A DNA stretch of 41,743 nucleotides from a virus. The stretch spans positions 1 through 41,743 of IMG/VR virus record IMGVR_UViG_3300009481_003971; one strand, 5' to 3'. The translations under genes and the position numbers were made by a program. Positions 16,589-32,924 of the stretch are shown piece after piece (positions within the stretch are counted from its first letter, which is position 1; the number at the start of each line of letters is the position of its first letter). The notes beneath the pieces were generated by a model that searched no databases, was not told the DNA's origin, and was given only the letters and a program-made list of their open reading frames with translations.

Positions 16589-18427
16589 TTATTCCTTCGG
16601 CTTATAAATTGTTACTAATTCATTTTTACCTTTCACTTTAATTTTGTCCATCTCTTCTCCCCTCATCTCTTTTGGAAGCTGTTCTTGTGTATAAGATGAA
16701 TATAAAGTATTTACTATATTACCATTTTCATCTTTATAATTTCTAGTCTGTGCTTCTAGTCTAGCTGCAAGATTAACTGCATCACCTATTACTGAATAGT
16801 CAAACCGAGAATCACTTCCCATATTACCTACGATACATGTTCCAGTGTTTACTCCACTTCCTATATTTATCTCTGGAAGTCCCTTATCCTTGAATGACTG
16901 TTTTAGCGCCTCTGTCTCTATGGCACACTCAATAGAGGTGCGTACTGCCATCTCAGCATGATTTTCACAATCCAAAGGAGCGTTCCAAAATGCCATAATA
17001 CAGTCTCCCATATATTTATCTACTGTTCCCCCGTTCTTTAATACAATCTTAGTCATTCTATTAAGATAATCATTGATACAATCCACTAATCCTTCTGGAT
17101 CATCATTATTCTTGTAATGTTCACTAATAGGTGTAAACCCTACTATGTCCATGAACAAAAAACTCATTTCTCTACGCTCACCCCCTAACTGTAGTAGCTC
17201 TGGATTCTTCTGTAATCTTTTAACCATCTCAGGAGCAAGATAGTGTTCAAACTGTTTTTTGATTTGTTGACGTAACTTAAATTCTTCCATAAATCGAAGA
17301 AATGCAGCGATGGCCCATGCAACAAATACAGTGAGTACAGGATAACTCCAATCCACCAGTAAATCGTGTTTAGTAAATAAATGCGAACTTCCATAAAATA
17401 ACCCTACTACTGTAGCAGGCATTGCTACTGCTCCGAAATACCACGGAAGTAGTAATACTATAGCCATTAATAACAGTCCGAAGCCAAAAGACGCACCAAG
17501 TTCTGCAAAATTAGTCCAATACGGGCGTGTAATGTTTCTACCCGTCATCATAGTTGCAAGAGCAGAACCTATTAAATCATGAGAATGTACTCTTCCTACA
17601 GGGGTTGATACAGTGCTGTCTAATCCTGTAGCAGTCATACTCAGTATTACTATTTTTCCTTTAAGGTCGGGTAATTTCTCATGTAAAGCATATACTGGTG
17701 TTTTCCATTTAAAATCAAGCCATATATTACCGTGTGCGTCTGTTTTAATAATTTTATATTTTGGTATTCTTACTGCTTCCACACCCGCAATACCCGTTTT
17801 CATTTGATAGGATATATCTCCTGCTGCCATTCTTAGAACTTCTAAACTTATAGAAGGATATACTTCATCTCCAACTGCGACTACTAGAGGCATGCGCCTA
17901 ACTACACCATCACCTTCTGGTGCAATAATCAACATACCAACTGCATTTGCGTTCTTTGCAAGTTCTGGTATTGGTCCTAACGCACCTTCATACTGGTATA
18001 ACCAACCTTTCCACGGTTGCCCTACTTTAGCAACTCCCCTTGTTACAGCAGTGTTAACATCGTCATTAGTCGGTATTTGTCCTATAATTGTAGGACTGCG
18101 TTTTAATGTTCTTGCGAGAACTGCGTCTTTTCCGAATCGATCCTTGTCTGCAAAAAGGATGGGAAGAACAACCAAACCAGCACCTTGCTGATAGAGTTTG
18201 ATAATTTCGACTGACAGCGTATTTCTATCCCAAGGCCACTGTCCTTTTGATCCAATTGTTTCATTATTAATTTCTACTGTTACTAAATTTGAAAGACTTT
18301 GTGTTACTTGATTTCTTTGGTGTTGGTCTAGTGCTTTCATTCGTACCATGTCCAGAAACCACGGGTTTAAAAAGTGAATACCAGATAAAACTAAGATAGC
18401 TAAGATAGAGACAATCCATTTTTTCAT
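16589..18427 (-). CDS. CHASE2-domain adenylate cyclase (class III)
   Basis: 612 aa. A short N-terminal span (4-20), a periplasmic CHASE2 sensor domain (about 35-300), three spans (about 308-378) and a cytoplasmic class III cyclase domain (about 418-600). Catalytic residues appear intact: metal-binding Asp427 in F-M-D-I-V-G-F and Asp475 in Y-M-G-D-C; purine-selecting Lys471 with Ser545 in Y-S-V-I-G-D (Lys plus Thr/Ser is the ATP-type, class IIIb pattern); Asn552 and Arg556 in N-L-A-A-R-L-E for transition-state stabilisation. It should make cAMP in response to a periplasmic signal. The start overlaps the upstream peptidase stop (ATGA). In bacteria CHASE2 cyclases often neighbour FecR-domain genes, as here. 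Confidence 0.93.
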   Translation of the reverse strand: MKKWIVSILAILVLSGIHFLNPWFLDMVRMKALDQHQRNQVTQSLSNLVTVEINNETIGSKGQWPWDRNTLSVEIIKLYQQGAGLVVLPILFADKDRFGKDAVLARTLKRSPTIIGQIPTNDDVNTAVTRGVAKVGQPWKGWLYQYEGALGPIPELAKNANAVGMLIIAPEGDGVVRRMPLVVAVGDEVYPSISLEVLRMAAGDISYQMKTGIAGVEAVRIPKYKIIKTDAHGNIWLDFKWKTPVYALHEKLPDLKGKIVILSMTATGLDSTVSTPVGRVHSHDLIGSALATMMTGRNITRPYWTNFAELGASFGFGLLLMAIVLLLPWYFGAVAMPATVVGLFYGSSHLFTKHDLLVDWSYPVLTVFVAWAIAAFLRFMEEFKLRQQIKKQFEHYLAPEMVKRLQKNPELLQLGGERREMSFLFMDIVGFTPISEHYKNNDDPEGLVDCINDYLNRMTKIVLKNGGTVDKYMGDCIMAFWNAPLDCENHAEMAVRTSIECAIETEALKQSFKDKGLPEINIGSGVNTGTCIVGNMGSDSRFDYSVIGDAVNLAARLEAQTRNYKDENGNIVNTLYSSYTQEQLPKEMRGEEMDKIKVKGKNELVTIYKPKE

Positions 18428-18912
18428 TGTTTCCTCAACTGTTTTTGTGTCTTTTCTACTGTTTGTTGTACTAACACTCTTATTAATTCTTTAATAGATA
18501 ACACTTTATACATACTACCTTTTACACCTTGTTCCCATGTTCTAACAAAAGGATGCCTATTATCAATCATATATTTATCGTCTACTTTAACAACCATATG
18601 AAGTTTACTACCAGAAATTTTTGGAATACGGACAATTACAGTGGTTACTTTGTGTCCTTTTTCTTTTAATAAATCTCTTATAGTATAAGCAAAATCGTCG
18701 CAATCACCTTTAAAAGTTTTTCCTTCTTTAACTTGTTTAGCAAAACTTATTTTACGATCTTCACCGTATTGATCTTCGTCACTAACATATTCAAATTTTC
18801 TAAGTGTATCTAAAAGTACTTGATCTAAAGGTTCATTAACTGAAGCTCTAGTAGTGCAACCCCAGAATAGAAAGGTGAAACTAAGTAAACTTGCTGTAAT
18901 TTTTTCATCCAT
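18424..18912 (-). CDS. Transglutaminase-like cysteine peptidase (LapG/BTLCP-like), possibly lipoprotein
   Basis: 162 aa. Cys71 in K-G-D-C-D-D-F-A, His105 in K-L-H-M-V-V and Asp117 in M-I-D-N-R-H form the Cys-His-Asp triad of bacterial transglutaminase-like cysteine proteinases, whose best known member LapG cleaves a surface adhesin in the periplasm. The hydrophobic N-terminus ends F-W-G-C-T near residue 19, a possible but imperfect lipobox. Length fits a compact LapG-like domain. It is flanked by a curlin-repeat protein and the CHASE2 cyclase, so processing of the fibre proteins is a plausible role, by inference. Confidence 0.8.
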   Translation of the reverse strand: MDEKITASLLSFTFLFWGCTTRASVNEPLDQVLLDTLRKFEYVSDEDQYGEDRKISFAKQVKEGKTFKGDCDDFAYTIRDLLKEKGHKVTTVIVRIPKISGSKLHMVVKVDDKYMIDNRHPFVRTWEQGVKGSMYKVLSIKELIRVLVQQTVEKTQKQLRKQ

Positions 18913-18921
18913 AAAATCTTT

Positions 18922-20382
18922 TCATTGAGTGCCTTGCGTTACGTTTATTGTACAACCTAATGCGTTGCTACATGTATTATTTAATTCATAGTGTTGATCT
19001 GTGTTTCCTTGTTGTAACAAGTCGAAGTCGGTGCTATAACCACTTAAAGTAACTCTAGCAGCATGATCACCTTGATCTTTTTGTGTTATAGTTACATCAT
19101 GTCCATTGTCATTCAATGTTAAATCTAAATACATTAATCCTATATTTTGTTGAGTAAGAAGTAAAGTATTACTACCACTATTAACATCTAGAAACATACT
19201 TTTTTGTCCATTATTTTTTTGTATCGCTGTTATATTGTTACTATTACCATCTAAGTCTAAATTAAAAAAATGTTTAGATAAAGTTCCATAATCTTTTTGA
19301 TCTAAACTTATTACGTTTGAATTGCCTGTAACATCAATAATAGCTTTATGACTTCCTATATCGCTATTTCTATCACCTTGTTTAACAGTTAGTTGATTAC
19401 TATTTCCACTTATAGCTAACCCTAGCCCGTTACCTCCGCTAACTCCAGTAGTAGTTACATTACCTTGATAAACTGTCAGAGTTATACTGTCTCCTGCTAT
19501 AACTGCTGGTCCGTCCCAGTCTATGTCCATAATAAAATTATTTTCGCCACCTTGTTTAATATCAGAAGTAAAATTAGCGCCACTTTGAGTTATATAAACA
19601 GTACTTTTCGTAACGGTCTTATTAATTGCTGCATTTTTTATTGTTGATTGACTTGTTGTTATAGAAATAGATACTGCGGTATTATAAGTACTGGCAAGCA
19701 TAGTACGTAATGCGTTCATAAAGTTTTTATTATTATTTGTGTAGTAACTACTATGAGATGCATAATTAATATCAGTAATTACAACAACTTTTCCAGTGTA
19801 ACTACTATCTAAATCACTACCGTACCAAACAGCTGCTACTATATTACCATTACTATCTTTTGCTAGCCAGGTTCCGTCACCAACTGAAGTTAACATCCCT
19901 CCTGCGGCAAAAGTGAGACTACCACTGTGACTAGCAAGATAAGATTCATTTGTGTTAAAAGTTGTAATAGAATTATTTGCATATCCTGTGCTAGTAGAAC
20001 TATTATAAACTACATTTCCCCCACCTAATTCATCCTTAATAAATTCTGTTATGTTTTGGTTACGAGGATTAAGAGAAGAATGGGGGTTTTCTCCTTGAAG
20101 ATAAAGTGTTCCTCCTCTTGCCAATAAAGCTTTATACGCTGTTTCTTCTGCAGAAGACAAATTATATGAATATCTTATGTCAAAAATCATTTCATAACTG
20201 GTCGTACTACTAGGAAACGAAGTAGTAGATGTTACAGTATGTCCTGCATCTTCTAATCTATTTTTCCATTTACTATGAGTATTCCCGTAACTCTGATGAT
20301 ATATCAAAACATCTTCAGCATATGCTGAAGTAAAGCTATTGACGCTGACTAATAAAAATAGTGCTATTAAAACCCGCTTCAT
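18922..20382 (-). CDS. Secreted curlin-repeat protein with N-terminal ThuA/GATase-like domain
   Basis: 486 aa. Signal peptide 1-22 (cleavage after A-Y-A). Residues 23-235 form an alpha/beta domain (V-L-I-Y-H-Q-S-Y-G-N, G-G-T-L-Y-L-Q-G-E-N, V-V-V-I-T-D-I-N-Y) that resembles ThuA or class I amidotransferase-like folds, but no catalytic triad is evident. A bridging motif V-Y-I-T-Q-S-G-A-N-F-T near residue 260 is almost identical to the start of the mature 234-aa curlin-like protein. From about 310 to the end there are curlin-like repeats (G-N-S-N-x-x-x-x-x-x-Q) at 23-27 residue spacing. It overlaps the FecR-fusion gene by 47 nt. Probably an extracellular fibre subunit, cap or adhesin. Confidence 0.8.
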   Translation of the reverse strand: MKRVLIALFLLVSVNSFTSAYAEDVLIYHQSYGNTHSKWKNRLEDAGHTVTSTTSFPSSTTSYEMIFDIRYSYNLSSAEETAYKALLARGGTLYLQGENPHSSLNPRNQNITEFIKDELGGGNVVYNSSTSTGYANNSITTFNTNESYLASHSGSLTFAAGGMLTSVGDGTWLAKDSNGNIVAAVWYGSDLDSSYTGKVVVITDINYASHSSYYTNNNKNFMNALRTMLASTYNTAVSISITTSQSTIKNAAINKTVTKSTVYITQSGANFTSDIKQGGENNFIMDIDWDGPAVIAGDSITLTVYQGNVTTTGVSGGNGLGLAISGNSNQLTVKQGDRNSDIGSHKAIIDVTGNSNVISLDQKDYGTLSKHFFNLDLDGNSNNITAIQKNNGQKSMFLDVNSGSNTLLLTQQNIGLMYLDLTLNDNGHDVTITQKDQGDHAARVTLSGYSTDFDLLQQGNTDQHYELNNTCSNALGCTINVTQGTQ

Positions 20383-21442
20383 CAGTTCTTATCTCCGGTA
20401 CTTCGACACCACCTTGGTTAATATTTATAGAATACCCATTTGTATTATTTAAAACTAAGTATATATTATTTCCGTCTACTTGTCTAATAATATGAGTTTC
20501 ATTTCCTTCTATAACAGTGGTTACTAAAGTATCTGGATTTTTACCAGATGTTTGTCCGTCAATATGAATACCTTTTCCTTTTTTTGTTGCTTTTTTCACT
20601 TCATATTTTTTATTTAACTGAGTTAAAATATTTAACAACAAATCAACATCTAGAGGGTTAATATCAAGTAATCCATATTCAAGTTCATCGTCTTCTAATT
20701 CATTTTCGTCCAATTCTTTATATTCTAATAAGTCAATATCTAATAAATTAGCCATTTTTTTAGAATCTTTTACTATTTCAACTAATTTTTCTTTAGGAGG
20801 TCTTATAATTAACATATTATTAATCTGATCTAATGTTAAATCTAATATTACTGGTTTAGAAGGGTTAGTTTCCGCTACACCTACAGTAGTTGCTTGAAAA
20901 GCTTTATTCATAATAACCCTTCCTGCATCTGTTTCTACAAAAATTTCTCCAACTGACCCATCAGCATTTGGTAATAAAATTACTAAAGATTTTCCAATTT
21001 CATCTACCGTCATACTAAATGCAGTTCCACGGACTCCAATTCTAGCAGTAGGAGTTCTAATATCTACATTTTGATTATTTAACTTAGCAATATTACCACT
21101 AGCATATCTTACAGTACCGATAGCGATATTCATTACTAATTTTGATCCTGATTTTGAATTAGGATCATAGACAAACTCGTCAATAACAAGAGAGCTTTGT
21201 GCACTTACAGCAACGTTTGTATCGTCTATAAAAGTAATTCCTAAATTACCTTTACCTGTACGAACAGTGTCTTTAAACATAATGTCCGAATTTTTGCGTA
21301 GAGTTAATTTTTTACTTTGTCTAGCGACAGAAGCTATACCTTCTTGCTTGACTACGGTTCCAATGGGTACAGCAGCTTCAGTTGTTGAAAAACTAGATAA
21401 AAAAATAATTAATAAACTACTCTGTAATCGTAACATCAACAT
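20336..21442 (-). CDS. FecR-domain protein with curlin-like C-terminus
   Basis: 368 aa from the ATG at 21440-21442, chosen because GGAGGTGG lies 8-10 nt upstream; upstream in-frame ATGs lack a site. A signal peptide ends near A-A-V-P. A FecR domain follows: G-K-G-N-L-G-I-T-F-I-D-D-T, Y-D-P-N-S, and R-T-P-T-A-R-I-G-V-R-G-T-A-F, the strongest FecR signature. Next come a Leu/Asp/Glu-rich linker (about 225-285) and a C-terminal segment with N-G-Y-S-I-N-I-N-Q-G-G and T-I-F-I-S-Q, like curlin repeats. It could sense or template the fibre. It overlaps the curlin-like gene by 26 nt. Confidence 0.85.
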   Translation of the reverse strand: MLMLRLQSSLLIIFLSSFSTTEAAVPIGTVVKQEGIASVARQSKKLTLRKNSDIMFKDTVRTGKGNLGITFIDDTNVAVSAQSSLVIDEFVYDPNSKSGSKLVMNIAIGTVRYASGNIAKLNNQNVDIRTPTARIGVRGTAFSMTVDEIGKSLVILLPNADGSVGEIFVETDAGRVIMNKAFQATTVGVAETNPSKPVILDLTLDQINNMLIIRPPKEKLVEIVKDSKKMANLLDIDLLEYKELDENELEDDELEYGLLDINPLDVDLLLNILTQLNKKYEVKKATKKGKGIHIDGQTSGKNPDTLVTTVIEGNETHIIRQVDGNNIYLVLNNTNGYSININQGGVEVPEIRTDEAGFNSTIFISQRQ

Positions 21443-22121
21443 CCATAGTACCACCTCCATTAGTAGTAATGTGAACATCTGTGTCGTGTTGACCAGATTG
21501 GTTTATGTCAAAATCTCCACTTGCTCCTGTATGATGTAATACAGTATTATGATGTCCACTACCAGAGTGGGTAATAGAAGGAGTGTTACTATTACCAATC
21601 ATTGTTACCGTAGTAGTTTTATCAGAAGCAGTTGATCCTGTAGCATTTTCATTAACAATAAGAATATTACTGTCACCTGTTAGTACCGCTGTAACATTAA
21701 CATCTTCAGTTGTTGCAGAACTACCAATATTATAAGTAGTGTTATTACTATCTCCTGTTGTAGTTTCAGAAATATGAACATCTGCCGCAGCAGCACTATC
21801 ACCAACATTTATAGTAGCTTCGTTACTTCCGCCCTGCTGTTTAACTTCTAAATCTTCTGCACCTGAAGCGCCTGCGCCTACAAATTTTCCGTCAATTTTA
21901 TTACTCGCACCTAACATATCAATGTCAAAAGTTAAGTTAGCCCCTGTTGCCGTAAAAACTGTAGTAGAGTTACCCATTTCGTTACCGTTACCGTCTATAA
22001 CTATACTTGCAGTAAATGATGCCCCTGACTGGGTAATATAAACATCACTGTCTGCAAGTGCAGAGGTTCCAATTAACAACATGATACCTGTAAATATACT
22101 AAAAACTAGTTTATTCTTCAT
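21417..22121 (-). CDS. Secreted curlin-like fibre subunit (CsgA/CsgB-like)
   Basis: 234 aa. Signal peptide 1-23 (A-L-A-D). The mature part starts V-Y-I-T-Q-S-G-A-S-F-T and carries a regular G-x-S-N (or G-N-G-N) motif whose Asn lies at residues 47, 74, 100, 126, 152 and 179, a 26-27 residue period, with Thr/Val-rich beta strands between. This is the layout of a beta-solenoid amyloid like curlin (usual period about 22). It has the best ribosome binding site in the region, AAGGAGGAG six nt before the ATG inside the end of csgG, as expected for an abundant major subunit. Confidence 0.85.
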   Translation of the reverse strand: MKNKLVFSIFTGIMLLIGTSALADSDVYITQSGASFTASIVIDGNGNEMGNSTTVFTATGANLTFDIDMLGASNKIDGKFVGAGASGAEDLEVKQQGGSNEATINVGDSAAAADVHISETTTGDSNNTTYNIGSSATTEDVNVTAVLTGDSNILIVNENATGSTASDKTTTVTMIGNSNTPSITHSGSGHHNTVLHHTGASGDFDINQSGQHDTDVHITTNGGGTMDVDVTITE

Positions 22122-22935
22122 CGTTTACTCCTCCTTGGAGTGATTTAAGAGCTTTAAACTCCCATAATTTTTTTGTCTCACCTTCCTTTATAAGTTCTAA
22201 AATAGCCTGATCTATCGCTTTTCTTACAGCGTAAGATACAGACTCATTATCTGTAAATCCTGCTTCAATTTCTAATAATTTAGTTCCTGCATCTATAAAT
22301 TTAAATAAATTATTACTCATTCGGACACTAAAAATTGTTTTTTCTGTACTAATTGCTAACAAAATTTCTCCAGTAGCAACAGACACTAATCGAATTCCAA
22401 TAGATACAGTATCTTTTCTATACTCACTAGATACTCCTATCCCTAATAGTCTAGCGCCTAGTCCACCTGTTCCTGTATTAGTATCGTATCCAACTATACC
22501 GCCCTCTAATATAACTCCAGCAAATAACAAAGCTCTAAGTTTTTTTGCTTTTTTACCGTCATGTGATTTTCTAGTGTTCCGTATAATTTGTCGCTCTTTT
22601 AATAAATTATCTAAATTAACTCTCTCAACAACTTGAAACCACGAACCTTTACCTGCACGTTTTAAAGATTGTAATATCCATATATGTGCTCCTTGTGTCA
22701 CAGCCGTGCTAATCTGTGCAACATTTGCATTTGGTTTTCTTTGTCCTGTTAAATCATCAAACTTATATACTGCAATTGGAACTTTTACTTTAGGAGGACC
22801 AACTGTTTCTAACTCATTAAGCAGAGGTTTAGAATTAACTGTTGGCGGCTCACTTAGCTCATCTGTAGTTTGACAGCCTATAAGTAAACTAAAACTTAAA
22901 ATCGTTAAGAGGAACTGTAATTGTCGTATTACCAT
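22111..22935 (-). CDS. csgG: CsgG-like outer-membrane curli secretion channel lipoprotein
   Basis: 274 aa, the length of CsgG. Lipobox L-I-G-C at Cys21, then V-P-I-A-V-Y-K-F-D-D-L-T-G-Q-R-K-P, W-F-x-V-V-E-R-x-x-L-D-N-L-L-K-E-R-Q-I-I-R, G-V-I-L-E-G-G-I-V-G-Y-D-T-N, G-L-G-A-R-L-L-G-I-G and V-R-L-V-S-V-A-T-G-E-I-L, all matching CsgG in order. The protein forms a nonameric channel that lets curlin subunits cross the outer membrane. It overlaps csgF upstream by 47 nt and the curlin-like gene downstream by 11 nt, so the three are tightly coupled. Confidence 0.95.
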   Translation of the reverse strand: MVIRQLQFLLTILSFSLLIGCQTTDELSEPPTVNSKPLLNELETVGPPKVKVPIAVYKFDDLTGQRKPNANVAQISTAVTQGAHIWILQSLKRAGKGSWFQVVERVNLDNLLKERQIIRNTRKSHDGKKAKKLRALLFAGVILEGGIVGYDTNTGTGGLGARLLGIGVSSEYRKDTVSIGIRLVSVATGEILLAISTEKTIFSVRMSNNLFKFIDAGTKLLEIEAGFTDNESVSYAVRKAIDQAILELIKEGETKKLWEFKALKSLQGGVNDEE

Positions 22936-23410
22936 CAGGACTATCTATTGTAAGGGTAACTACGTCATTTGCAATATCTTTATTATAAGCAATGGTAGTT
23001 CCCTCAAAGGTTACAGTCCCGCTACATCCTGTCCCGCCACCGTCTCCTTGAGCCACTTGGTCGGTAGGCGCGACAGAAGTACCAGAGCCGTCATAAGTTG
23101 TGCCACAGGCTTCACCGAATAGACTGTCAGTTAAATCTTTAGATAACTGAGCATATATTCGTGATTCTAAATTTTTTATAAATTTTGCGTAATTAGAATT
23201 TTGGCTGTCTCGAAGGAGCTGTCTTTCGGCTGCTTCTTTTTTCTCTCTTATAGCCGCTTTACGAGAAAATTCTTGGTTTTCAATAGTCAACCAATGAGCA
23301 CTTGCTCCCTGCCCTGTGAAAGAGGGCGAAAAGAATTTAAAAGTAAGGGATTCCGCAACTGCAACAGTTGGGAATAACCATAAAAGAGTTATACATAAAA
23401 GAGTTCGCAT
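22889..23410 (-). CDS. csgF: CsgF-like curli assembly/gating protein
   Basis: 173 aa. Signal peptide 1-19 (V-A-V-A-E). The mature N-terminus S-L-T-F-K-F-F-S-P-S-F-T-G matches the CsgF segment that inserts in the CsgG channel (T-M-T-F-Q-F-R-N-P-N-F-G in E. coli). A helical region with L-R-D-S-Q-N-S-N and Q-L-S-K-D-L-T-D-S-L-F-G follows, then a Gly-rich insert with two Cys and a beta-rich C-terminus. It is longer than E. coli CsgF (138 aa) because of that insert. Position directly before csgG supports the call. Confidence 0.88.
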   Translation of the reverse strand: MRTLLCITLLWLFPTVAVAESLTFKFFSPSFTGQGASAHWLTIENQEFSRKAAIREKKEAAERQLLRDSQNSNYAKFIKNLESRIYAQLSKDLTDSLFGEACGTTYDGSGTSVAPTDQVAQGDGGGTGCSGTVTFEGTTIAYNKDIANDVVTLTIDSPDGNTTITVPLNDFKF

Positions 23411-23746
23411 TTAATTTCTCCTCGATAAATTTTTAATTTTTTCAGAATTATTATCAATTCTTTCGTCTTGTTTTGCATCCCTTTGTTTTTGCGCTCTTTC
23501 AAAGGGATCGTTTTGTTGATCTTGTATTTCAATTATTGTATTAATTTTTTGATCTAATCTAATCATGTCATTATCCAACATGCGTATTCGATCTATCAAC
23601 GCAATCAAGGTAGTAGATGCTTCGTTTAAAGATGGAAGTATAGTTGTAGTGACATACTTCCAAATATAATAAATAAAGTATGCCATACCAACAGCAACTA
23701 CAGTAGGTACACCATATTGGTTTATTGCAGCTACAATATCTTGCAT
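23411..23746 (-). CDS. Membrane/coiled-coil protein, holin-like (111 aa)
   Basis: One hydrophobic segment (about 13-32), then a helix with L-I-A-L-I-D-R-I-R-M-L-D-N-D-M-I-R-L-D-Q and a very charged tail. It is similar in layout and in K-Y ... N ... R-L-D spacing to the upstream 92-aa gene, so the two look like tandem paralogues. Its ATG overlaps the upstream stop by 1 nt. The size and topology fit a holin or antiholin next to the endolysin; this is inference. Confidence 0.6.
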   Translation of the reverse strand: MQDIVAAINQYGVPTVVAVGMAYFIYYIWKYVTTTILPSLNEASTTLIALIDRIRMLDNDMIRLDQKINTIIEIQDQQNDPFERAQKQRDAKQDERIDNNSEKIKNLSRRN

Positions 23747-24024
23747 TAGTCTTTCCTAGCATCCTCTTTACCATCAGCAGCACTTAATCTTCGAGTATCT
23801 GGTTTGACTCCCAAAGCATGACAAATTAAAGCATCTAATCGTACAATTTCATTATTAATAGTTTTTACTCTATTATCTAATGCACTAATCATACCATTTA
23901 ATGCTTTTGCTTTATTAACTACTGATTCTAAAATATATTTTAGTAACAGAATGATAAAAAATCCACCACCTATTACTGCTGCAATAGAAAAGCCTAAATC
24001 TGCAATTAAGATAAAAGCATCCAT
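23746..24024 (-). CDS. Membrane/coiled-coil protein, holin-like (92 aa)
   Basis: Hydrophobic segment at about 5-32, then K-Y-I-L-E-S-V-V-N-K-A and a helix ending N-N-E-I-V-R-L-D-A-L-I, with a charged C-terminal tail. Paralogue of the next gene by eye. Located after the spanin-like pair, so a role in the timing of lysis is plausible. Alternative: membrane adaptor for the curli island that follows. Confidence 0.6.
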   Translation of the reverse strand: MDAFILIADLGFSIAAVIGGGFFIILLLKYILESVVNKAKALNGMISALDNRVKTINNEIVRLDALICHALGVKPDTRRLSAADGKEDARKD

Positions 24025-24073
24025 TGTATTAAAAAATTACCTCTCTTTAATAAAACCCCTCACTTTCATTTTT

Positions 24074-24583
24074 TTATTTTTTCCAAAATTGTAACTGATT
24101 TACAATTTTGTTATCTTTCTTATTTTTATTTTCAATGTCCTGATTATGCTTCTTAACTTCCTTTTGTACACGCTCTTGATCCTTCTTTAACCGTTCAAGT
24201 TCTACAGTTTGCTTCTCATAATAACTTTTATAAGCAAGTATTACTGCTCTTTGTTGTTTTAATAATTGTGTAGTCCTAGCTTGATTCATTGATAGACTTT
24301 CATAGCCTTTGTCTGTAAGACCAAAAAGTACATAATCATAACCTTTTTTGTCTAACTTTGCAAAAACTTTGTCTGCCGTATCAGGAGTTATTAGTATCCA
24401 CTCTAATTTATCTAATTTTAACTCATCAACATTAGGCAAGTCTAAGGGCACTCGTTCTACGGGTGCGGTTGAAATTTCTAGTTTTTTAACAGGGGTTCCA
24501 CAAGCCGTGAGGCTACTGACCAAGATAATTGGGATTAGCCAGTTTAGGGCATGCCTTGTTAATTTGACTCCTCTTTGTTGCAT
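24074..24583 (-). CDS. Lipoprotein with coiled coil, outer-spanin-like
   Basis: 169 aa. A hydrophobic signal with lipobox L-T-A-C (Cys28), a small alpha/beta region (about 40-100), and a long charged coiled coil (about 100-160). The start lies inside the upstream inner-spanin-like gene in another frame, the arrangement of Rz/Rz1 pairs. It is longer than classic Rz1, so it may be an elaborated outer-membrane spanin subunit. Call rests on context and topology. Confidence 0.6.
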   Translation of the reverse strand: MQQRGVKLTRHALNWLIPIILVSSLTACGTPVKKLEISTAPVERVPLDLPNVDELKLDKLEWILITPDTADKVFAKLDKKGYDYVLFGLTDKGYESLSMNQARTTQLLKQQRAVILAYKSYYEKQTVELERLKKDQERVQKEVKKHNQDIENKNKKDNKIVNQLQFWKK

Positions 24584-24998
24584 TTATTTCTTTTTCTCTC
24601 AGGGGGCTACCAGATATAATTTCTACACATCTAATAGCATCATTAGATCCCTTAGTTACAATTTTACTAATTACTCTAGGTTTTGCCGCGCCGAGTTTAC
24701 CAATATCTCTAGCACCTAACAGTTTACTCTGTTTATTAAATTTATTTCTTAAATCATCTACAGACTTTCTAGAGTCTGAAAACGCTTGTTCCACTTTTCT
24801 TTTTTGTTCTGTTATTTCGACAATATCTTTTTTATACGAGTCAATTGCTTGCTTTTGTGTTGAAACAGCAGATTCTAATTTTGCATTGTTCTCATGCAAA
24901 ATAGCCATTTTTTCTTGAGTATCTGTATAATACCAATAGAAAACGCCACCTACAGCAGCCATTACAACTAACATAAGTCCCGCTAATTTGAATCCCAT
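24513..24998 (-). CDS. Inner-spanin-like (Rz-type) membrane protein
   Basis: 161 aa. N-terminal anchor at about 4-23 followed by a long periplasmic coiled coil (about 28-110) and a C-terminal domain with two Cys. Located directly after the endolysin (1-nt overlap region) and overlapping the lipoprotein gene by 71 nt. This fits an i-spanin that joins with an outer-membrane lipoprotein to fuse the membranes at the end of lysis. Confidence 0.7.
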   Translation of the reverse strand: MGFKLAGLMLVVMAAVGGVFYWYYTDTQEKMAILHENNAKLESAVSTQKQAIDSYKKDIVEITEQKRKVEQAFSDSRKSVDDLRNKFNKQSKLLGARDIGKLGAAKPRVISKIVTKGSNDAIRCVEIISGSPLREKEINATKRSQINKACPKLANPNYLGQ

Positions 24999-25510
24999 TA
25001 TATCATCTCTAAGGCGGCTTCAGTAGTTTCATCAACTCTACGTGTCCAACCTCTTCCAAACGTCTCAAATGTTGATAAAGATTCGTAGTATTTTTGTCTA
25101 GCTGTTTGATAGTCATGTATAGTAGGAGCAAGACCTTCTGCACCTACATATTCTTTTACTTTATATAAAGTATTAGGTCCGATCGCCCCATCAGCAGCAG
25201 ATCCAATCATGCGCTGTAAATATTTAGCAGCTCTACCTGTTCCAGCATTTACTCCGAAATCAAATACACACAAATCTAATCCTGGAGGCAGTTTATCACA
25301 TTTTAGTCTTCCCCAGTAATTTTTTTCATAAATAGGGGCAACATCTTCAACTGTTAAGTCTTTCATATCTTTTGTACCACCCCATTCTTCATATACCCTT
25401 TTAGTAACTCCGAGATTTGTTTCTCCTCCAGGGTCTTTAGGGTGATTTACGTAACCACCTTCATGATGTAAAATTAGGTTTAAACATTTACTATAGTTTT
25501 CGCTTGACAC
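24998..25510 (-). CDS. Endolysin, GH108-type N-acetylmuramidase
   Basis: 170 aa. H-H-E-G-G-Y-V-N-H-P-K-D-P-G-G-E-T-N-L-G-V-T at 15-36 is the GH108 signature with catalytic Glu17, followed by Y-W-x-x-L-K-C-D-x-L-P-P-G-L-D and V-F-D-F-G-V-N-A-G, then a peptidoglycan-binding segment (G-A-I-G-P-N-T). It cleaves the glycan strand. The start is GTG with a GAAGGAGAG ribosome binding site. No signal sequence, so a holin is needed for access to the wall. Confidence 0.93.
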   Translation of the reverse strand: MSSENYSKCLNLILHHEGGYVNHPKDPGGETNLGVTKRVYEEWGGTKDMKDLTVEDVAPIYEKNYWGRLKCDKLPPGLDLCVFDFGVNAGTGRAAKYLQRMIGSAADGAIGPNTLYKVKEYVGAEGLAPTIHDYQTARQKYYESLSTFETFGRGWTRRVDETTEAALEMI

Positions 25511-25563
25511 TATTACTCTCCTTCACCTTTAATATTAATATATTTACAACTAAAAGTCCAATT

Positions 25564-25968
25564 TTAAATTGAAAAACTTTCTCCGCATCCGCAACGGCTT
25601 GTTTCATTACCTGTTGTAAATACAAAATCTTTTTTAAACTTGTCCGAAATATAATCTAACGTGCCCACACTATTCTCTATAGTTGATACAACTTCCTTGT
25701 CTACCCATACAATAATATCATTTATTTGAAATTTAATCGCATTAGAAGTATTTTTCGTTGTTGGTTTCTCTACAAAGTAACTTAATCCATTACATCCTTT
25801 TGTAGATAAACCTATATAAGCACTAGGAAAAGGCTGGTCTGTGAGTATTTGTGCTGCTGCATCTGTAATTGTAATAATACAAGAATTTTGCATCATAAAT
25901 AGCTCTTCTGTGGTATAAATACTTGCTGATTTTTTTTCTTTAATTTCTGCTATTGATAATTTTCCCAT
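25564..25968 (-). CDS. A-type Fe-S cluster carrier (IscA/HesB-like)
   Basis: 134 aa. I-T-D-A-A-A near residue 34, T-K-G-C-N-G (Cys59) and a C-terminal C-G-C-G-E-S-F (Cys126 and Cys128) give the three cluster-binding cysteines of A-type carriers. A 25-residue N-terminal extension is unusual, but AAGGAG eight nt before the first ATG supports the full length. It would hand Fe-S clusters to targets such as the radical SAM protein in this window (inference). Confidence 0.9.
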   Translation of the reverse strand: MGKLSIAEIKEKKSASIYTTEELFMMQNSCIITITDAAAQILTDQPFPSAYIGLSTKGCNGLSYFVEKPTTKNTSNAIKFQINDIIVWVDKEVVSTIENSVGTLDYISDKFKKDFVFTTGNETSRCGCGESFSI

Positions 25969-26158
25969 TTCTAAACTCCTTGAAATTATATTTTGTTAAT
26001 ATTCCTTTAACAGTATTCCATTGTCTAGTTGTTAGTTGAGGATACTCTTCTTGGCATTTTAAACACCCTCTAATGAAATTAGAGTCGTATGACGACATTT
26101 TTTGTGTTATAAAAAACGTCGTCATACGTTTAGTTATTCTTCGAGTTATCTTTTTCAT
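25940..26158 (-). CDS. Hypothetical protein (72 aa)
   Basis: Very basic N-terminal 20 residues, then S-S-Y-D-S-N-F-I-R-G-C-L-K-C and Y-P-Q-L-T-T-R-Q-W. The ATG at 26158 has AAGG upstream and is preferred to an inner ATG at 26098 that lies within a long inverted repeat and has no site. It overlaps the neighbouring genes on both sides. A C-x2-C pair may bind metal. Function unknown. Confidence 0.5.
   Translation of the reverse strand: MKKITRRITKRMTTFFITQKMSSYDSNFIRGCLKCQEEYPQLTTRQWNTVKGILTKYNFKEFRNGKIINSRN
26086..26128 (-). repeat. 18-bp inverted repeat inside the 72-aa gene
   Basis: Arms 26086-26103 and 26111-26128 pair over 18 positions with a single G-U pair in RNA and a 7-nt loop. It begins two bases after the stop codon of the upstream 49-aa gene and covers an inner ATG of the 72-aa gene. 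No T run follows, so it is not a standard terminator. Confidence 0.85.
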
Positions 26159-26279
26159 TTGTTACCTTAATTTTTGGAACTTCATAAACAAAAGGGTCAG
26201 ATTTGAGTAATTTTCTTTTTTTAAAGAAAAAATGTAACTCAAATATAACTCTTTCATATATCTCAAAAAATACTTTCAT
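26130..26279 (-). CDS. Small hypothetical protein (49 aa)
   Basis: ATG at 26277-26279, directly next to the stop codon of the TRAP solute-binding gene (TAAAATG), suggesting translational coupling. The first 22 residues are aromatic and hydrophobic but short for a membrane span (V-F-F-E-I-Y-E-R-V-I-F-E-L-H-F-F-F), followed by a Lys-rich stretch. Could be a small amphipathic membrane-associated protein. Function unknown. Confidence 0.45.
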   Translation of the reverse strand: MKVFFEIYERVIFELHFFFKKRKLLKSDPFVYEVPKIKVTNEKDNSKNN

Positions 26280-26280
26280 T

Positions 26281-27276
26281 TTATTTTATCAATCCTATAT
26301 CTGTGTAAAATTTAATAGCACCGGGATGTATTAATTTTCTATCAAAATTAGCCATAACATTTCTATCAAATGTTTTCCAAATTTTTGACATTTTCATAAG
26401 CTCATCTACGTTTTCATAAATTGCTTTTGTAACTGCATAAACTTTTTTATCGGACGTATGGGTACTTGCCCACATCGTATAGTAATAAGCAAGTACATTT
26501 GTTTGTTCTTTAACAGGAACATATGACCCTGCAGAAACAGTATCAATGTATGCGTACTTAGACATATATTTTTTAGCAGCTCTTAAACTTTTATCTGTTT
26601 TAGTAAGATTTAAACATCTAATTCCGTCTTTAAACTTAATTGCGGCTTTTTGAGGCCATGAAGAGCCTAAAGATGTAAATACCCAATCAACTTGATTTTT
26701 TATAAACATTCTTCTCGCAAATTTTAAAGATGAAGCACTTTTTAAATTTAATTCTCTAGGTTTAATATTTTCTGTGCCTAAAATTGCATCTGTAATATGT
26801 CTATAAACAGGTGCAGCACGGTAAAAATAAGGTGTTCTAGTACCTATAACATTTCTTAGTTCTTTAATAGAAGAATGTTGAGGTACTACAGGGCATAATC
26901 TAAGAACCATCAAAGTAGCTACATGACGTAAATTACTGTAATCTTTTCCTAGAAACTGTCCTGTTGATGTATATAACCAGTGTGCTTGAACAATATTAGA
27001 AGCACCAAAATCTAGTGTTCCATTATTAACTAATGGAGCAATTGCATTAGTTCCCGAATAATGAATTGGTTTCATTATGAATTGTGAATTATCTGTAACT
27101 ATTTTAGGAATTGTTAAAGATAATCCCTTACTAAATGATCCCTTTTTACCTCCGAAAGTCATTGTGTTTGATTCAGGTTTTGAATCATACTTAGATAAAA
27201 TATCTTTTAAATCTGCTGTATAAGCAGGGCTAGTTAACATAAGTAAAAACGCTAAAATTAAACTAAAAATTTTCAT
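26281..27276 (-). CDS. TRAP transporter solute-binding protein, TAXI family
   Basis: 331 aa. Signal peptide 1-20 (A-Y-T-A-D), then the TAXI-type fold: F-G-G-K-K-G-S-F near 41-48, G-T-N-A-I-A-P-L-V-N-N-G-T-L-D-F-G-A-S-N near 75-95, and a C-terminal H-P-G-A-I-K-F-Y-T-D-I-G. It would capture a solute (commonly an organic acid or amino acid for the family) in the periplasm and pass it to the membrane permease encoded just upstream. The pair is co-transcribed with 39 nt between them. Ligand not predictable. Confidence 0.88.
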   Translation of the reverse strand: MKIFSLILAFLLMLTSPAYTADLKDILSKYDSKPESNTMTFGGKKGSFSKGLSLTIPKIVTDNSQFIMKPIHYSGTNAIAPLVNNGTLDFGASNIVQAHWLYTSTGQFLGKDYSNLRHVATLMVLRLCPVVPQHSSIKELRNVIGTRTPYFYRAAPVYRHITDAILGTENIKPRELNLKSASSLKFARRMFIKNQVDWVFTSLGSSWPQKAAIKFKDGIRCLNLTKTDKSLRAAKKYMSKYAYIDTVSAGSYVPVKEQTNVLAYYYTMWASTHTSDKKVYAVTKAIYENVDELMKMSKIWKTFDRNVMANFDRKLIHPGAIKFYTDIGLIK

Positions 27277-27315
27277 TAAGTTTCCTTTCTCTTTTTAATT
27301 TTATAATACTTTTAA

Positions 27316-28869
27316 CTAAAAGTCAAACAATAAAATGTTTGGAAAATAAACAATCAAAAACGGAATTAAAAACACAACCCAACAAATTTTAACTGCTTCA
27401 AACGAAGTTTTCATGGGGTCCGCTTTTGATATACTAGCAGCAGCAAAAGAACAAATTGCTATCGGAGGTGTGATATTAGCTAATATCGCAAACCAATATA
27501 CAAAAAGATGTGCTGCTAATAGAGGTATACCTAGTTCTACTAAAGCAGGTGCACATAAATGTGCAACTAACAAGTAAGCAGGAACTGTAGGCATACCCAT
27601 ACCTAATATTAAACAGGTTACTGCAGTAATAATAAGTAATAATGGTAAACTATATTGACCCATAGAAGTTAAAAAATAAGTTATACTATATCCTAAACTA
27701 GTATATTCTAATGTTCCAACTGCTAAAGAAGCAGCTAATAATATTACAATTATTGAAATTGCTGATCGTCCTGTTTCAACAAAAATTTCAAATAATTTGG
27801 TAATATTTAATTTAGTTACACATGCTGCTAATAACGCCACAGAAGCATAAAGAACTGCGGTATCGGGTTCTAAATTAAAATAAAATAGACTAATCATTAT
27901 AACTATAAAAGGAAGTACAAAAAACCAACCTTTTTTAAAAGAAAAATCTACTTTTTCTTCTTCTATATTTTTTATATTTTTAGAAGAAAAATAATGTGCA
28001 TGAAAAAATAAAGGGGTGTAATAAAGAAGAGCAGGTATTATTGCGGCAATTGCAATATCTGCATAGGGTATGTCAATAATATCAGCCATAATAAAAACAG
28101 CCGCACCCATAATTGGAGGTACTATCTGACCACCTGTTGAAGCTATAGCTTCATAAGCGGCGGCCACTGTTCTTTTATATCCAGATTTTAGCATAATAGG
28201 GATTGTTATTACCCCTGTAGATACCGTATTCGCAATAGTACTTCCAGAAATAGTACCAAAGATACTAGAAGCCACTATTGCAATTTTAGCAGGTCCACCT
28301 TTTTGATTTTGGACCATTGCTCTTGACGCATCTATTATCCAAGCTGTTCCTCCTGTTACTTTTAATATACTGGAAAAGAACAAAAACAATAGTATTACTT
28401 CTAAAAATATTTGAGGACCAATACCAAAAAGGCCGCTATCACTCATTCCTAAAAATGTAATATATTCTAGTATATTTATCTCTCTTGATTGTAGTAATGG
28501 AGAAGGAATATATTGTCCAAAAATAGCGTATAGCATAAAACAACATATAACATAAAATAACGCTTTACTGGCACTAACATAACAGCAAAATAAAATAGTT
28601 CCTACTAATACTGTAGAAATTAAACTAGACTCAATTATATGGTCGTATAAATTTTCACTTAATTCGGGAAAATTAAAAAATAAATATCCAGATACCCCTA
28701 ATACAAAATAGGCGAAATATTTATTATACTTTTCAAGAACAAGAAACAAAGACATTCCTAACATTCCTGTAAGTATTTGTTCTAAATATAAAAATGGAAA
28801 TAAATTTAATACATAGCCTATTCCCAACAAGGGTAATAAGGCAAATAACAAATTACTAACTATACTCAT
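27316..28869 (-). CDS. TRAP transporter fused permease (TAXI-associated)
   Basis: 517 aa and strongly hydrophobic with more than a dozen likely spans. The G-G-x-A-x-I-A-I-V-A-S-S-x-F-G-T-I-S-G-S-x-x-A-N-T-V-S-T-G region and Y-E-A-I-A-S-T-G-G-Q-I-V-P-P-I-M-G-A-A match the DctM core, and P-T-V-P-A-Y-L-L-V-A with N-I-T-P-P-I-A lies near the C-terminus, as in fused DctQM permeases. It is shorter than most fused TAXI permeases (600 aa or more), mainly at the N-terminal Q part. Works with the adjacent TAXI binding protein in the inner membrane using the sodium gradient. Confidence 0.9.
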   Translation of the reverse strand: MSIVSNLLFALLPLLGIGYVLNLFPFLYLEQILTGMLGMSLFLVLEKYNKYFAYFVLGVSGYLFFNFPELSENLYDHIIESSLISTVLVGTILFCCYVSASKALFYVICCFMLYAIFGQYIPSPLLQSREINILEYITFLGMSDSGLFGIGPQIFLEVILLFLFFSSILKVTGGTAWIIDASRAMVQNQKGGPAKIAIVASSIFGTISGSTIANTVSTGVITIPIMLKSGYKRTVAAAYEAIASTGGQIVPPIMGAAVFIMADIIDIPYADIAIAAIIPALLYYTPLFFHAHYFSSKNIKNIEEEKVDFSFKKGWFFVLPFIVIMISLFYFNLEPDTAVLYASVALLAACVTKLNITKLFEIFVETGRSAISIIVILLAASLAVGTLEYTSLGYSITYFLTSMGQYSLPLLLIITAVTCLILGMGMPTVPAYLLVAHLCAPALVELGIPLLAAHLFVYWFAILANITPPIAICSFAAASISKADPMKTSFEAVKICWVVFLIPFLIVYFPNILLFDF

Positions 28870-29332
28870 CTTCCTTTGTTATACAAATAGTTAATCTTGG
28901 TTCCGGTGTAGGATTTACAACTCTATGTTCTAAATCTGACCTAAAAACATAACTATACCCCTCTTCTGGTATCCATTTGACACCGTTTTTAAACTCTAGA
29001 AAACTATTATCTGGAGTTTTAATATAAGTTAAAATAGCACTCGATAGCTCTTTTTTATTCTGGTCCACATGCCAATTAATATATCCTTTTGGTCCTAGTA
29101 TTGCGGCGTAAACTGTATCATAAGGAGCTAATTTATTTTCTCTTAGCCACTCTCTTAAATATTTACATACTACAAGTATTTGATTAGGTTTCCCCTTAGT
29201 TATTAAATCAATACTTTTCCAATCTTTAGCGTACCCTGTTCTATCTTTTGTTAATTTTCTAAGTAACAAAATTTCTTTAGAAGCTAACTCGCAATTAATT
29301 TTTAAAGTATCAAGTTTTTTGTAATAAATCAT
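28856..29332 (-). CDS. 2OG-Fe(II) oxygenase-like / Asp-beta-hydroxylase-like cupin protein
   Basis: 158 aa. G-Y-I-N-W-H-V-D-Q provides an H-x-D metal pair, then S-F-L-E-F, G-Y-S-Y-V-F-R-S-D-L-E-H-R-V-V-N gives the distal His and P-R-L-T-I-C-I the 2OG-binding Arg. This is the order of the double-stranded beta-helix oxygenases. Substrate unknown. It overlaps the TRAP permease start by 14 nt and the nuclease gene by 23 nt. Confidence 0.75.
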   Translation of the reverse strand: MIYYKKLDTLKINCELASKEILLLRKLTKDRTGYAKDWKSIDLITKGKPNQILVVCKYLREWLRENKLAPYDTVYAAILGPKGYINWHVDQNKKELSSAILTYIKTPDNSFLEFKNGVKWIPEEGYSYVFRSDLEHRVVNPTPEPRLTICITKEDEYS

Positions 29333-29981
29333 TGTATTTCATTACTCTATTTCTTAGATCAGGAATGTAATGAAGCATATTACCTTTAAAAACTTGAATA
29401 TCATCCGACTCTACAGTTATTAAAATTATAATTTGTTTAATATCCGTTTGAAATAACTCATTATGTGCATAGGCGTACGCAGCACATTGAATATAATAAT
29501 CTTTAATTTGTTTAACATTTTTTTTCTTTTTAGATGTTTTAAAATCAACAATAGAGGGTTTATTATCCCATAATCCTACTAAATCAACTCTACCTGCATA
29601 TTTTAATGTAGGACTCCATAAAGGAATTTCTTGTGCCCACACTTCATCAATTCCACGCTCTCCTGCTTTAATCAAGTTATGTGTCATTTGTCTAACGTCG
29701 GAAGATTCAGAAGCTAAATCAGAATAAATATCTTCTTTATTAAAATACTTTTCAGCATATTCATGGATTAATGTTCCTCTGTCTGTTGCTTCTTTTGAAA
29801 TTCTATTAGCTTCTTCTTCACCAACTCGTTCTCGCCATTTTTGTAACCAAACTTGATTATCTGAAGTTTTACCTAGTAAGGTGGTGATACTAGGAAAATC
29901 ACCATCAGGAGTAAAATAAGTCCTGCCAGTCGGTAATGTCTCAGCATAAACAGATGAAGTTTTTTCATAATTTATATCCAT
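29310..29981 (-). CDS. PD-(D/E)XK nuclease (Cas4/RecB-like)
   Basis: 223 aa. G-T-L-I-H-E-Y-A-E-K supplies the leading His/Glu, Y-A-G-R-V-D-L-V-G the first Asp, S-I-V-D-F-K-T-S-K-K the D-x-K motif and I-Q-C-A-A-Y-A-Y-A the Q-x3-Y motif, the set seen in RecB/Cas4-type single-strand nucleases. Likely acts in DNA processing, recombination or host DNA breakdown. No C-terminal Fe-S cysteines are present, unlike Cas4 proper. ATG preceded by GGAGAAATA. Confidence 0.88.
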   Translation of the reverse strand: MDINYEKTSSVYAETLPTGRTYFTPDGDFPSITTLLGKTSDNQVWLQKWRERVGEEEANRISKEATDRGTLIHEYAEKYFNKEDIYSDLASESSDVRQMTHNLIKAGERGIDEVWAQEIPLWSPTLKYAGRVDLVGLWDNKPSIVDFKTSKKKKNVKQIKDYYIQCAAYAYAHNELFQTDIKQIIILITVESDDIQVFKGNMLHYIPDLRNRVMKYNDLLQKT

Positions 29982-30529
29982 TATTTCTCCACAAAAGTAT
30001 GATTTCCAATAATAGTTTTACTTTTTATTTTTTTTGCCCAAGATGGAAATACTTTCTTATGGGCGTAGTAATGCAAAGCATTACCCACTAAAGGTTTATC
30101 GAGATCAAAATAAACTAACATTGATGTTGCAACAGCATTTTTCCAATGACGTTTGGAATATTTATTATATAAACGAATTTTATCAGACCTACCATCACAA
30201 TACCAACTAAATTGGCATCTATGTTTAGAAGGATAATATATTCTTTCACTATCTGCTAATTTAGGATATTTTTTAGTTTTCCAACTTTCCCTTATTGGAC
30301 CTTCTAAAATAACTTTACAGTATGTATTAGGAAAATGTTTATTTTTTACTCTATTTTTAACTACTTGATTAACTGCTATTTTACCTATGGGAGCCTCTCC
30401 TCTAGCTTCAAAAAAAGCATTTGAAGCTAGACAGTATAACTCTTGTATATCTGTACTGCCAAGATTAGAATAGGTTGCAGAAGCTAATTGTATAAGTATA
30501 GTTAAAGCTTTTGGTGTAATTTCTAGCAT
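29981..30529 (-). CDS. SleB-type cell wall hydrolase
   Basis: 182 aa. L-A-S-N-A-F-F-E-A-R-G-E-A-P-I-G-K-I-A-V-N-Q-V-V beginning near residue 34 and C-Q-F-S-W-Y-C-D-G then A-L-H-Y-Y-A match the Hydrolase_2/SleB family (PF07486), with Glu in E-A-R-G-E as catalytic acid. The first 30 residues are not a clear signal peptide. It is a second peptidoglycan-cutting enzyme besides GH108 and may act at entry or lysis. Confidence 0.9.
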   Translation of the reverse strand: MLEITPKALTILIQLASATYSNLGSTDIQELYCLASNAFFEARGEAPIGKIAVNQVVKNRVKNKHFPNTYCKVILEGPIRESWKTKKYPKLADSERIYYPSKHRCQFSWYCDGRSDKIRLYNKYSKRHWKNAVATSMLVYFDLDKPLVGNALHYYAHKKVFPSWAKKIKSKTIIGNHTFVEK

Positions 30530-30530
30530 A

Positions 30531-30905
30531 TTATTTATTCTCTAGATAGTTTTCTTTTTCACGCATTTTAAAATAATCGTATATAATTAATGGTTTACCT
30601 GCTGCTACTAAACAAGAAACCCCTTTAGCATCGGTTAAAATAAGAGTCCAAGTTTGTGTTTTTGGATTAAGTAAAACCTGAAATATTTGGCTCTGGTTTG
30701 CATTAAGTATTCCTGACAATGCTGTTGTTTCTTGAAATTGGTCCTTAATCATTGTAGTCATTCTAACAGTATTATCACATATTACACTCATTATTCCCAG
30801 TTGAGGTTCTGCAGTAACACTAGGAAAATTTAATTCTTGTGCTGCTACTTTAAATGGAATAGTTAAAAGTAAACTTAGTAAAATTGTTAAATAAATAGAT
30901 TTCAT
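30531..30905 (-). CDS. Small secreted protein of unknown function (124 aa)
   Basis: Signal peptide 1-22 (V-A-A-Q). The mature part has two Cys, one near the start (S-V-I-C-D-N) and one near the end (G-V-S-C-L-V-A-A-G), possibly a disulfide, and a W-T-L-I-L-T-D strand. I recall similar periplasmic proteins in marine phages (unverified). It is the first gene after the best promoter in the window, so it may be made in large amounts. The GGAGAC ribosome binding site precedes the ATG. Confidence 0.65.
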   Translation of the reverse strand: MKSIYLTILLSLLLTIPFKVAAQELNFPSVTAEPQLGIMSVICDNTVRMTTMIKDQFQETTALSGILNANQSQIFQVLLNPKTQTWTLILTDAKGVSCLVAAGKPLIIYDYFKMREKENYLENK

Positions 30906-30926
30906 TTTTGTCTCCGTACTCTGTAC

Positions 30927-30955
30927 ATTATATATAATAGTTAACCTTTTGTCAA
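30927..30955 (-). promoter_or_regulatory. Perfect sigma70 consensus promoter
   Basis: Minus strand TTGACA (30950-30955), 17-nt spacer, TATAAT (30927-30932). It abuts the carbamoyltransferase stop codon at 30956 and would drive the long leftward run from 30905. Confidence 0.95.
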
Positions 30956-32344: not shown

Positions 32345-32346
32345 AT

Positions 32347-32384
32347 ATAAAAATAGGCCAGAGTCTGGTAAAAGACTCTGACCT
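32347..32384 (-). terminator. Rho-independent terminator after hsp20
   Basis: Minus strand 11-bp stem with one G-U pair (32374-32384 with 32355-32365), 8-nt loop, then ATTTTTAT. It lies 27 nt after the hsp20 stop and ends about 10 nt before the carbamoyltransferase start. Confidence 0.9.
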
Positions 32385-32410
32385 GTTCCTTTGTAAGTTT
32401 CGAGTCTATA

Positions 32411-32848
32411 TTACTTTACAGTAATAAGTCGAGGTTTCTTTTCTTCTGGAATAATACGTTCTAGTTTAATAGAAAGCATACCGTTTTCCAGTGTTGCATC
32501 GTTTACAATGATATCATCAGCAAGAGTAAACCTTCGTTCAAACTTACGATATGAAATACCACGATAAACAGTGTCTTCATCTTTACTGTTTTCTTTTACA
32601 GAACGAACAGAAAGTGTTCCATCAGCAACTTCTACTTCAATGTCCTCCTTACCAAAACCCGCAAGAGCCATTTCGATCACATGATTGTATTTACCTTCTT
32701 TCCGAATATTATAAGGCGGAAATCCTGTAGACGCTACATTATCTGTAGCATATCTACTTAGCGTGTCAAACATACGATCAAAACCTACTGCATACGGGGT
32801 AAGTTGATTGAAGTTGTCGAATAGATTTAGTGTTTTATTTGTAACCAT
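32411..32848 (-). CDS. Small heat shock protein Hsp20 (IbpA-like)
   Basis: 145 aa. An alpha-crystallin domain at about 48-135 with Y-N-I-R-K-E-G, V-I-E-M-A-L-A-G-F-G-K-E-D-I-E-V-E-V, G-T-L-S-V-R, R-x-F-E-R-R-F-T-L-A-D and N-G-M-L-S-I-K-L-E-R. The N-terminal F-D-R-M-F-D-T-L is typical of IbpA types, and the short C-terminal R-L-I-T-V-K replaces the usual I-x-I tail. It binds unfolding proteins; in marine T4-like phages Hsp20 is common and may help capsid assembly. It is monocistronic with its own promoter, leader RNA element and terminator. Confidence 0.95.
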   Translation of the reverse strand: MVTNKTLNLFDNFNQLTPYAVGFDRMFDTLSRYATDNVASTGFPPYNIRKEGKYNHVIEMALAGFGKEDIEVEVADGTLSVRSVKENSKDEDTVYRGISYRKFERRFTLADDIIVNDATLENGMLSIKLERIIPEEKKPRLITVK

Positions 32849-32904: not shown

Positions 32905-32924
32905 ACTGGTTTTATCCATTATTT

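Follow-up and report, generated by a model that had tools for sequence, protein, structure and literature searches.

The virus record IMGVR_UViG_3300009481_003971 of IMG/VR, a stretch of 41.7 kb that we call the window, carries on its minus strand (16589-23410) a seven-gene phage module of the type VIII secretion, or curli, kind. On balance we favor the view, deduced from the genes, that this module exports curlin-type fibers from the infected cell, probably late and with feedback through a FecR-domain protein and a CHASE2 cyclase. Modules of this kind are already known in phages; the window holds a member with an extra peptidase, belonging to a separate clade of CsgG.

The seven open reading frames (ORFs) lie on the same strand, are all open at the coordinates in Table 1, and follow the order CsgF, CsgG, a first curlin-type protein (Cur1), the FecR-domain protein, a second curlin-type protein (Cur2), a C93 peptidase, and a CHASE2 adenylate cyclase. 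The original prediction, made from the sequence of the window alone, described these genes as contiguous and overlapping. Contiguous they are, with a 9-nt gap at one junction; at the other five, neighboring genes overlap by 4-62 nt. Because another contig matches window positions 17217-32935 (15.7 kb) at 99.93% identity, spanning the peptidase gene and entering that of the cyclase, the arrangement is not an assembly artifact or a chimera. Judged at the curated Pfam cut-offs, proteins of the window match CsgG, CsgF, FecR, Peptidase_C93, CHASE2, and Guanylate_cyc, which bears out the identities first proposed for them; for the two curlins, agreement comes at the level of their families, as described below. 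The strong PHROG matches of these proteins are without exception labeled "unknown function."

The pore genes are the most clearly recognizable. In addition to its domain, CsgG has a LIGC lipobox, and the profile of the viral CsgG family matches the solved Escherichia coli CsgG at 9.8e-73. CsgF combines its domain with the conserved mature N-terminus, where P29, F31, and G35 behind the leader are invariant across phage and bacterial CsgF. The module thus shares with the E. coli csg system a CsgG pore, a CsgF cap, and curlin repeats, and differs from it in that no CsgC, CsgD, or CsgE was identified in the window. CsgF, CsgG, a curlin, and FecR stand contiguous and in order, joined by a second curlin and the cyclase, which places the window among the phage type VIII secretion modules.

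A scan of IMG/VR returned at least 287 relatives of CsgG, 80 of which were kept for a survey (locus numbers beginning with L). Among these the recurring viral order is two small genes for proteins with a transmembrane segment and a coiled coil (TM-coil), followed by CsgF, CsgG, Cur1, FecR, Cur2, and the cyclase; in one viral group the small pair follows the cyclase and is encoded on the opposite strand, and some modules are without Cur2. A tblastn search of annotated phages with the window CsgG hit nothing beyond HTVC008M, the Melnitz phages, and a single short record without annotation; the full-length cyclase turned up in HTVC008M and the Melnitz phages. HTVC008M (KC465899) and Melnitz (MZ577097) have the order small pair-CsgF-CsgG-curlin-FecR-curlin-CHASE2 cyclase, with 41-51% identity to the window for CsgG and FecR and 38-51% for the cyclase. 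The window differs from them in the inserted C93 gene, in the N-terminal domain of Cur2, and in its CsgG, which falls in a separate clade of our tree. The original prediction had staked its case on profile matches and on synteny across genomes, and HTVC008M and Melnitz indeed share the order with many IMG/VR contigs. It was also right that the set holds a pore, a cap, candidate substrates, and a sensor. These substrates and sensor do not, as it supposed, add to the known phage genes: after the description of CsgF and CsgG with their neighbors in pelagimyophages (PMC7029224), CsgA/B, FecR, an adenylate cyclase, and a "histidine kinase" in the small gene(s) before CsgF were reported from pelagiphages (PMC9599517). 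The module is frequent in ocean phages, yet SAR11 is reported to be without it (PMC7029224, PMC9599517).

The window's own curlin-type proteins stay below the Pfam cut-off for Curlin_rpt (best E 0.26, with no match for the other), but their families exceed it: 23 of the 39 Cur1 members (best 3.2e-9) and 17 of the 36 Cur2 members (best 5.1e-13) match this model. Both family profiles match the solved curlin-repeat protein 8c50 (3.5e-11 for Cur1 and 1.3e-13 for Cur2); their matches to 8enq, the major curlin subunit, are weaker (0.004 and 0.003, respectively). AlphaFold gives Cur1 a confident all-beta ladder (pLDDT 86, pTM 0.81). For Cur2, it predicts an alpha/beta N-terminal half poorly and models residues 260-486, with moderate to good confidence, as mostly beta ladder. 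Foldseek searches of PDB with both models yielded weak, nonspecific beta-helix and Rossmann matches alone. From profiles and models together, Cur1 and Cur2 are homologous, at the level of the family, to curlins of known structure, with a predicted beta-ladder fold.

Cur2 proteins range from 87 to 497 residues. Their C-terminal end, with two invariant cysteines, is common to the family. The N-terminal domain is PA14 in HTVC008M (2.7e-6), an alpha/beta domain with weak likeness to ThuA/DUF4350 in the window and its relatives, and absent in some other members. The simplest reading is that the N-terminus would be an exchangeable display domain on a common fiber; this apparently swappable domain of the second curlin is new. 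The HTVC008M second curlin (L002:10638-11963), with its PA14 domain and curlin repeats, is annotated as hypothetical.

Across 36 viral and two bacterial sequences, the FecR-domain protein consists of a leader, the FecR domain, a linker, and a terminal strand in which a Gln is invariant; in the window its true start probably lies inside the listed ORF. The C-terminal motif hydrophobic-x-hydrophobic-x-Q occurs in all 36 viral FecR proteins, in 25 of 36 Cur2 and in 13 of 39 Cur1 proteins, where shuffled sequences predict fewer than one. CsgF, cyclase, and TM-coil proteins all lack it. The cytoplasmic anti-sigma part that precedes the membrane span in Fec-type regulators was not found, and the hydrophobic leader runs directly into the FecR domain. 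Given this layout and the distribution of the motif, the protein looks secreted and fiber-associated, which fits better than a sigma-factor regulator. The "FecR regulator" of these phages would thus be a secreted protein that seems to end in an invariant curlin-like strand, a feature not described before.

Class III cyclases depend on a metal-binding pair of Asp, a Lys, and an Arg as functional residues. The window protein joins a CHASE2 domain to a cyclase domain with all four, and D427, K471, D475, and R556 are invariant across 19 sequences. FecR and CHASE2 adjoin elsewhere too, in at least three of 30 alphaproteobacterial CHASE2 loci when short flanks are searched with a single viral-built profile. 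The same holds for the BiofilmReg operon of Burkholderia, which pairs a secreted LysM-FecR protein with a CHASE2 kinase and in which biofilm is lost when the response regulator is disrupted (PMC5192318). The Burkholderia CHASE2 protein differs in its output, a histidine kinase, and its FecR partner carries LysM rather than a curlin tail. Because the pairing recurs, including in this biofilm operon, we propose that the phage cyclase may sense the FecR protein or a fiber that contains it.

To our knowledge, FecR, the cyclase, and C93 are not part of classical csg operons, and neither FecR nor the cyclase was detected in a sample of ten ordinary alpha- and gammaproteobacterial curli loci. Two Caulobacteraceae contigs from metagenome-assembled genomes (MAGs; L096 and L097) hold the whole set as an operon, CsgF-CsgG-curlin-curlin-FecR-CHASE2 cyclase, in which FecR has the same terminal strand. 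They differ from the window in having both curlins ahead of FecR and neither the small pair nor C93. L097, which we read out, is flanked by ordinary chromosomal genes, as is the set without the cyclase on a gammaproteobacterial MAG contig (L100). CsgG from the Caulobacteraceae loci and L100 groups with viral CsgG (97/94), apart from other bacterial CsgG. The Caulobacteraceae operon is a new finding and provides a system to study in bacteria. Since these contigs carry the whole set, the statement that FecR and the cyclase lie outside bacterial type VIII secretion operons (PMC9599517) needs a qualifier. Other MAG contigs, assigned to Flavobacteriaceae, Pirellulales, Pelagibacter, and Synechococcus (L091, L092, L094, L095, L101, L102, and L109), are short, carry viral-type modules, and were set aside as probable phage contamination. 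Conversely, the CsgG of a 1.5-kb "Salmonella phage" record (L004, OR851715.1) groups with bacterial curli CsgG, so this is probably bacterial DNA.

The C93 peptidase belongs by its domain to the LapG/BTLCP family, and its catalytic C71, H105, and D117 are intact and invariant. It differs from known LapG-type systems in that no LapA-type adhesin or LapD-type partner was identified in the island. Inside the module, the gene was found solely in the window and its twin contig; none of 53 other viral loci covering the stretch from FecR to the cyclase has it, nor does any of 13 bacterial curli loci. Two scans of IMG/VR for its relatives gave seven C93 loci. The nearest, with 75% and 72% identity (L086 and L087), are sited elsewhere in phages beside unrelated genes, namely a glycosyltransferase-like and an asparagine-synthase-like gene in L086, and capsid- and tail-tube-like genes, which precede it, in L087 (all names read from sequence). 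DNA likeness between the window and L086 is confined to the C93 gene, and the L086 record has no CsgF. Neither phmmer against PDB nor tblastn against annotated phages returned a match for C93. This distribution rules the peptidase out as a core part of the system, and we read it as accessory cargo, a newly recognized insertion that may or may not be recruited to the fiber. Of the original proposal that the set includes a processing enzyme, there remains that C93 is the sole extra gene, but the module does not stably include it, and its role is unproven. In other phages, different cargo fills the slot that holds C93. A SoxY-SoxZ fusion is encoded between FecR and the second curlin in L060 (5739-6482), with like-sized ORFs at the same place in L054 and L073. 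In L019 (5368-6102) a calcineurin-type phosphoesterase occupies the module's same slot, and L022 has a like-sized ORF.

Upstream of CsgF lie two small genes (23411-24024), each encoding some 90-110 residues that include a coiled coil and a single membrane span. Their family is present in 78 of the surveyed viral loci, in curli-bearing phages only among the annotated ones, and in none of 13 bacterial curli loci; that they belong to the viral module is a new result. From their position, they are probably the "HK" (histidine kinase) of earlier work (PMC9599517), and no kinase domain was found in them. Directly upstream of this pair lies a lysis cassette, with PHROG matches to an endolysin (1.5e-52) and to Rz-like spanins (2.1e-12 and 6.8e-4). 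Spanin homologs occur within 2 kb upstream of the module in twelve further loci (L005, L013, L015, L017, L018, L036, L053, L056, L069, L074, L075, and L079) and immediately after the cyclase in three (L051, L076, and L080). The spanin-linked loci fall in three CsgG clades, including that of the window. This link between the module and lysis genes, also new, appears recurrent rather than general, and points to late timing in some lineages. As the module sits behind endolysin and spanin genes, its place suggests late production in the lineage of the window.

From the gene identities and order, the conservation of the module and of its catalytic residues, and the curlin homology, all of which are observed directly, we infer secretion, fiber assembly, FecR-CHASE2 signaling, timing, and benefit to the phage. 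The infected cell would export curlin-type beta-solenoid proteins through the CsgG outer-membrane pore, capped by CsgF, for assembly on its surface. Cur1 would be the main fiber subunit, and Cur2 would combine the repeats it has in common with Cur1 with its exchangeable display domain. The FecR-domain protein, through its curlin-like tail, may anchor or start the fiber and be what the CHASE2 cyclase senses in the periplasm; the cyclase would produce cyclic AMP (cAMP). That such a fiber might coat the cell, block other phages, or hold cells together are hypotheses of the original prediction that others, too, have published (PMC7029224, PMC9599517). The comparison makes of the gene list a set of testable parts: the fiber-like FecR protein, the exchangeable Cur2 domains, and the small viral membrane pair. 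Several points weigh against fiber export, which in this phage is read from genes. CsgE was not identified in the module and is missing from the published phage modules (PMC9599517); phage CsgF has been modeled as divergent, and infections with Melnitz gave no cell clumping (PMC9004378). Regarding timing, no spanin was detected near many modules, those of HTVC008M and Melnitz among them. The T4-type late promoter TATAAATA occurs nine times in the window, where 11.6 matches would be expected, and never before the module; we dropped it as evidence.

The main rival is the proposal of a lysis role (PMC9004378), in which the pore matters rather than the fiber: CsgG/CsgF would open the outer membrane and help the timing or completion of lysis, with the curlins as plugs or passengers. 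The absence of clumping agrees with this proposal, as do the endolysin and spanin genes directly upstream, the nearby spanins in three CsgG clades, and the viral-only membrane pair beside the pore genes. We nevertheless hold it to be unlikely, since it leaves unexplained the conserved curlins with their exchangeable N-termini, the FecR tail, the CHASE2 cyclase, and the same operon in bacterial chromosomes. An import of nutrients or siderophores through CsgG, with FecR as an iron sensor (PMC9599517, PMC7029224), would suit a phage that does carry uptake genes, as the porin and TRAP transporter pair of the window attest. It is very unlikely indeed, given a FecR protein that looks secreted and curlin-tailed, and it does not account for CsgF, the two curlins, or the cyclase. 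The peptidase raises a different question, whether this lineage recruited a LapG-like enzyme that cleaves the FecR or curlin proteins or sets them free. Its Cys-His-Asp triad is intact, its gene lies between those of Cur2 and the cyclase and overlaps the latter by 4 nt, and the FecR-family profile weakly matches the antifreeze-protein chain 5ix9 (E 0.004), which we take to be part of an RTX adhesin of the sort cleaved by LapG. Set against its absence from all other modules surveyed, its relatives beside unrelated phage genes, and the lack of a LapG-type di-alanine site evident by eye in the FecR protein past the leader, this recruitment seems rather improbable. Fiber export remains our preferred reading. 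Its fullest version would be a late, lysis-linked amyloid module with an exchangeable display domain, in which a loop of FecR tail and CHASE2-generated cAMP reports assembly and, in the lineage of the window, the exports are trimmed or set free by a captured LapG-type peptidase; we regard this as a long shot.

Table 1. Genes of the curli-type module of the window and their lysis-gene neighbors
Feature	Coordinates	Strand	Evidence
CsgF-like pore cap, 173 aa	22889..23410	-	Pfam CsgF 2.5e-11; conserved mature N-terminus
CsgG outer-membrane pore lipoprotein, 274 aa	22111..22935	-	Pfam CsgG 1.4e-54; LIGC lipobox
Cur1, first curlin-type subunit, 234 aa	21417..22121	-	family Curlin_rpt matches; 8c50 profile match; predicted beta ladder
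FecR-domain protein with C-terminal curlin-like strand	20336..21478	-	Pfam FecR 4.5e-7; invariant C-terminal Gln
Cur2, second curlin-type protein, 486 aa: variable alpha/beta N-terminal domain and curlin repeats	18922..20382	-	family Curlin_rpt matches; 8c50 profile match
C93 (BTLCP/LapG-family) cysteine peptidase, accessory insertion	18424..18912	-	Pfam Peptidase_C93 2.8e-7; C71, H105, D117 invariant
CHASE2 adenylate cyclase, 612 aa	16589..18427	-	Pfam CHASE2 6.9e-35 and Guanylate_cyc 7.8e-18
Small membrane coiled-coil protein B (phrog_18771)	23411..23746	-	phrog_18771 8.9e-31; module member in viral survey
Small membrane coiled-coil protein A (phrog_18771)	23746..24024	-	phrog_18771; module member in viral survey
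Lysis cassette upstream of module: endolysin 24998-25510, Rz-like spanin 24513-24998, second spanin-like lipoprotein 24074-24583	24074..25510	-	PHROG

Elsewhere on the minus strand, the window encodes a Gram-negative porin (5318-6250; Porin_4, 5.1e-21) and, shortly upstream of the lysis cassette, a TRAP transporter pair of the TAXI type (26281-28869; solute-binding protein NMT1_3 2.7e-19, DctM permease 2.6e-73). Metabolic genes at 861-2899 and 30956-32344, likewise on the minus strand, comprise IMPDH/GMP reductase, a dihydroorotate-dehydrogenase-like protein, and a carbamoyltransferase.

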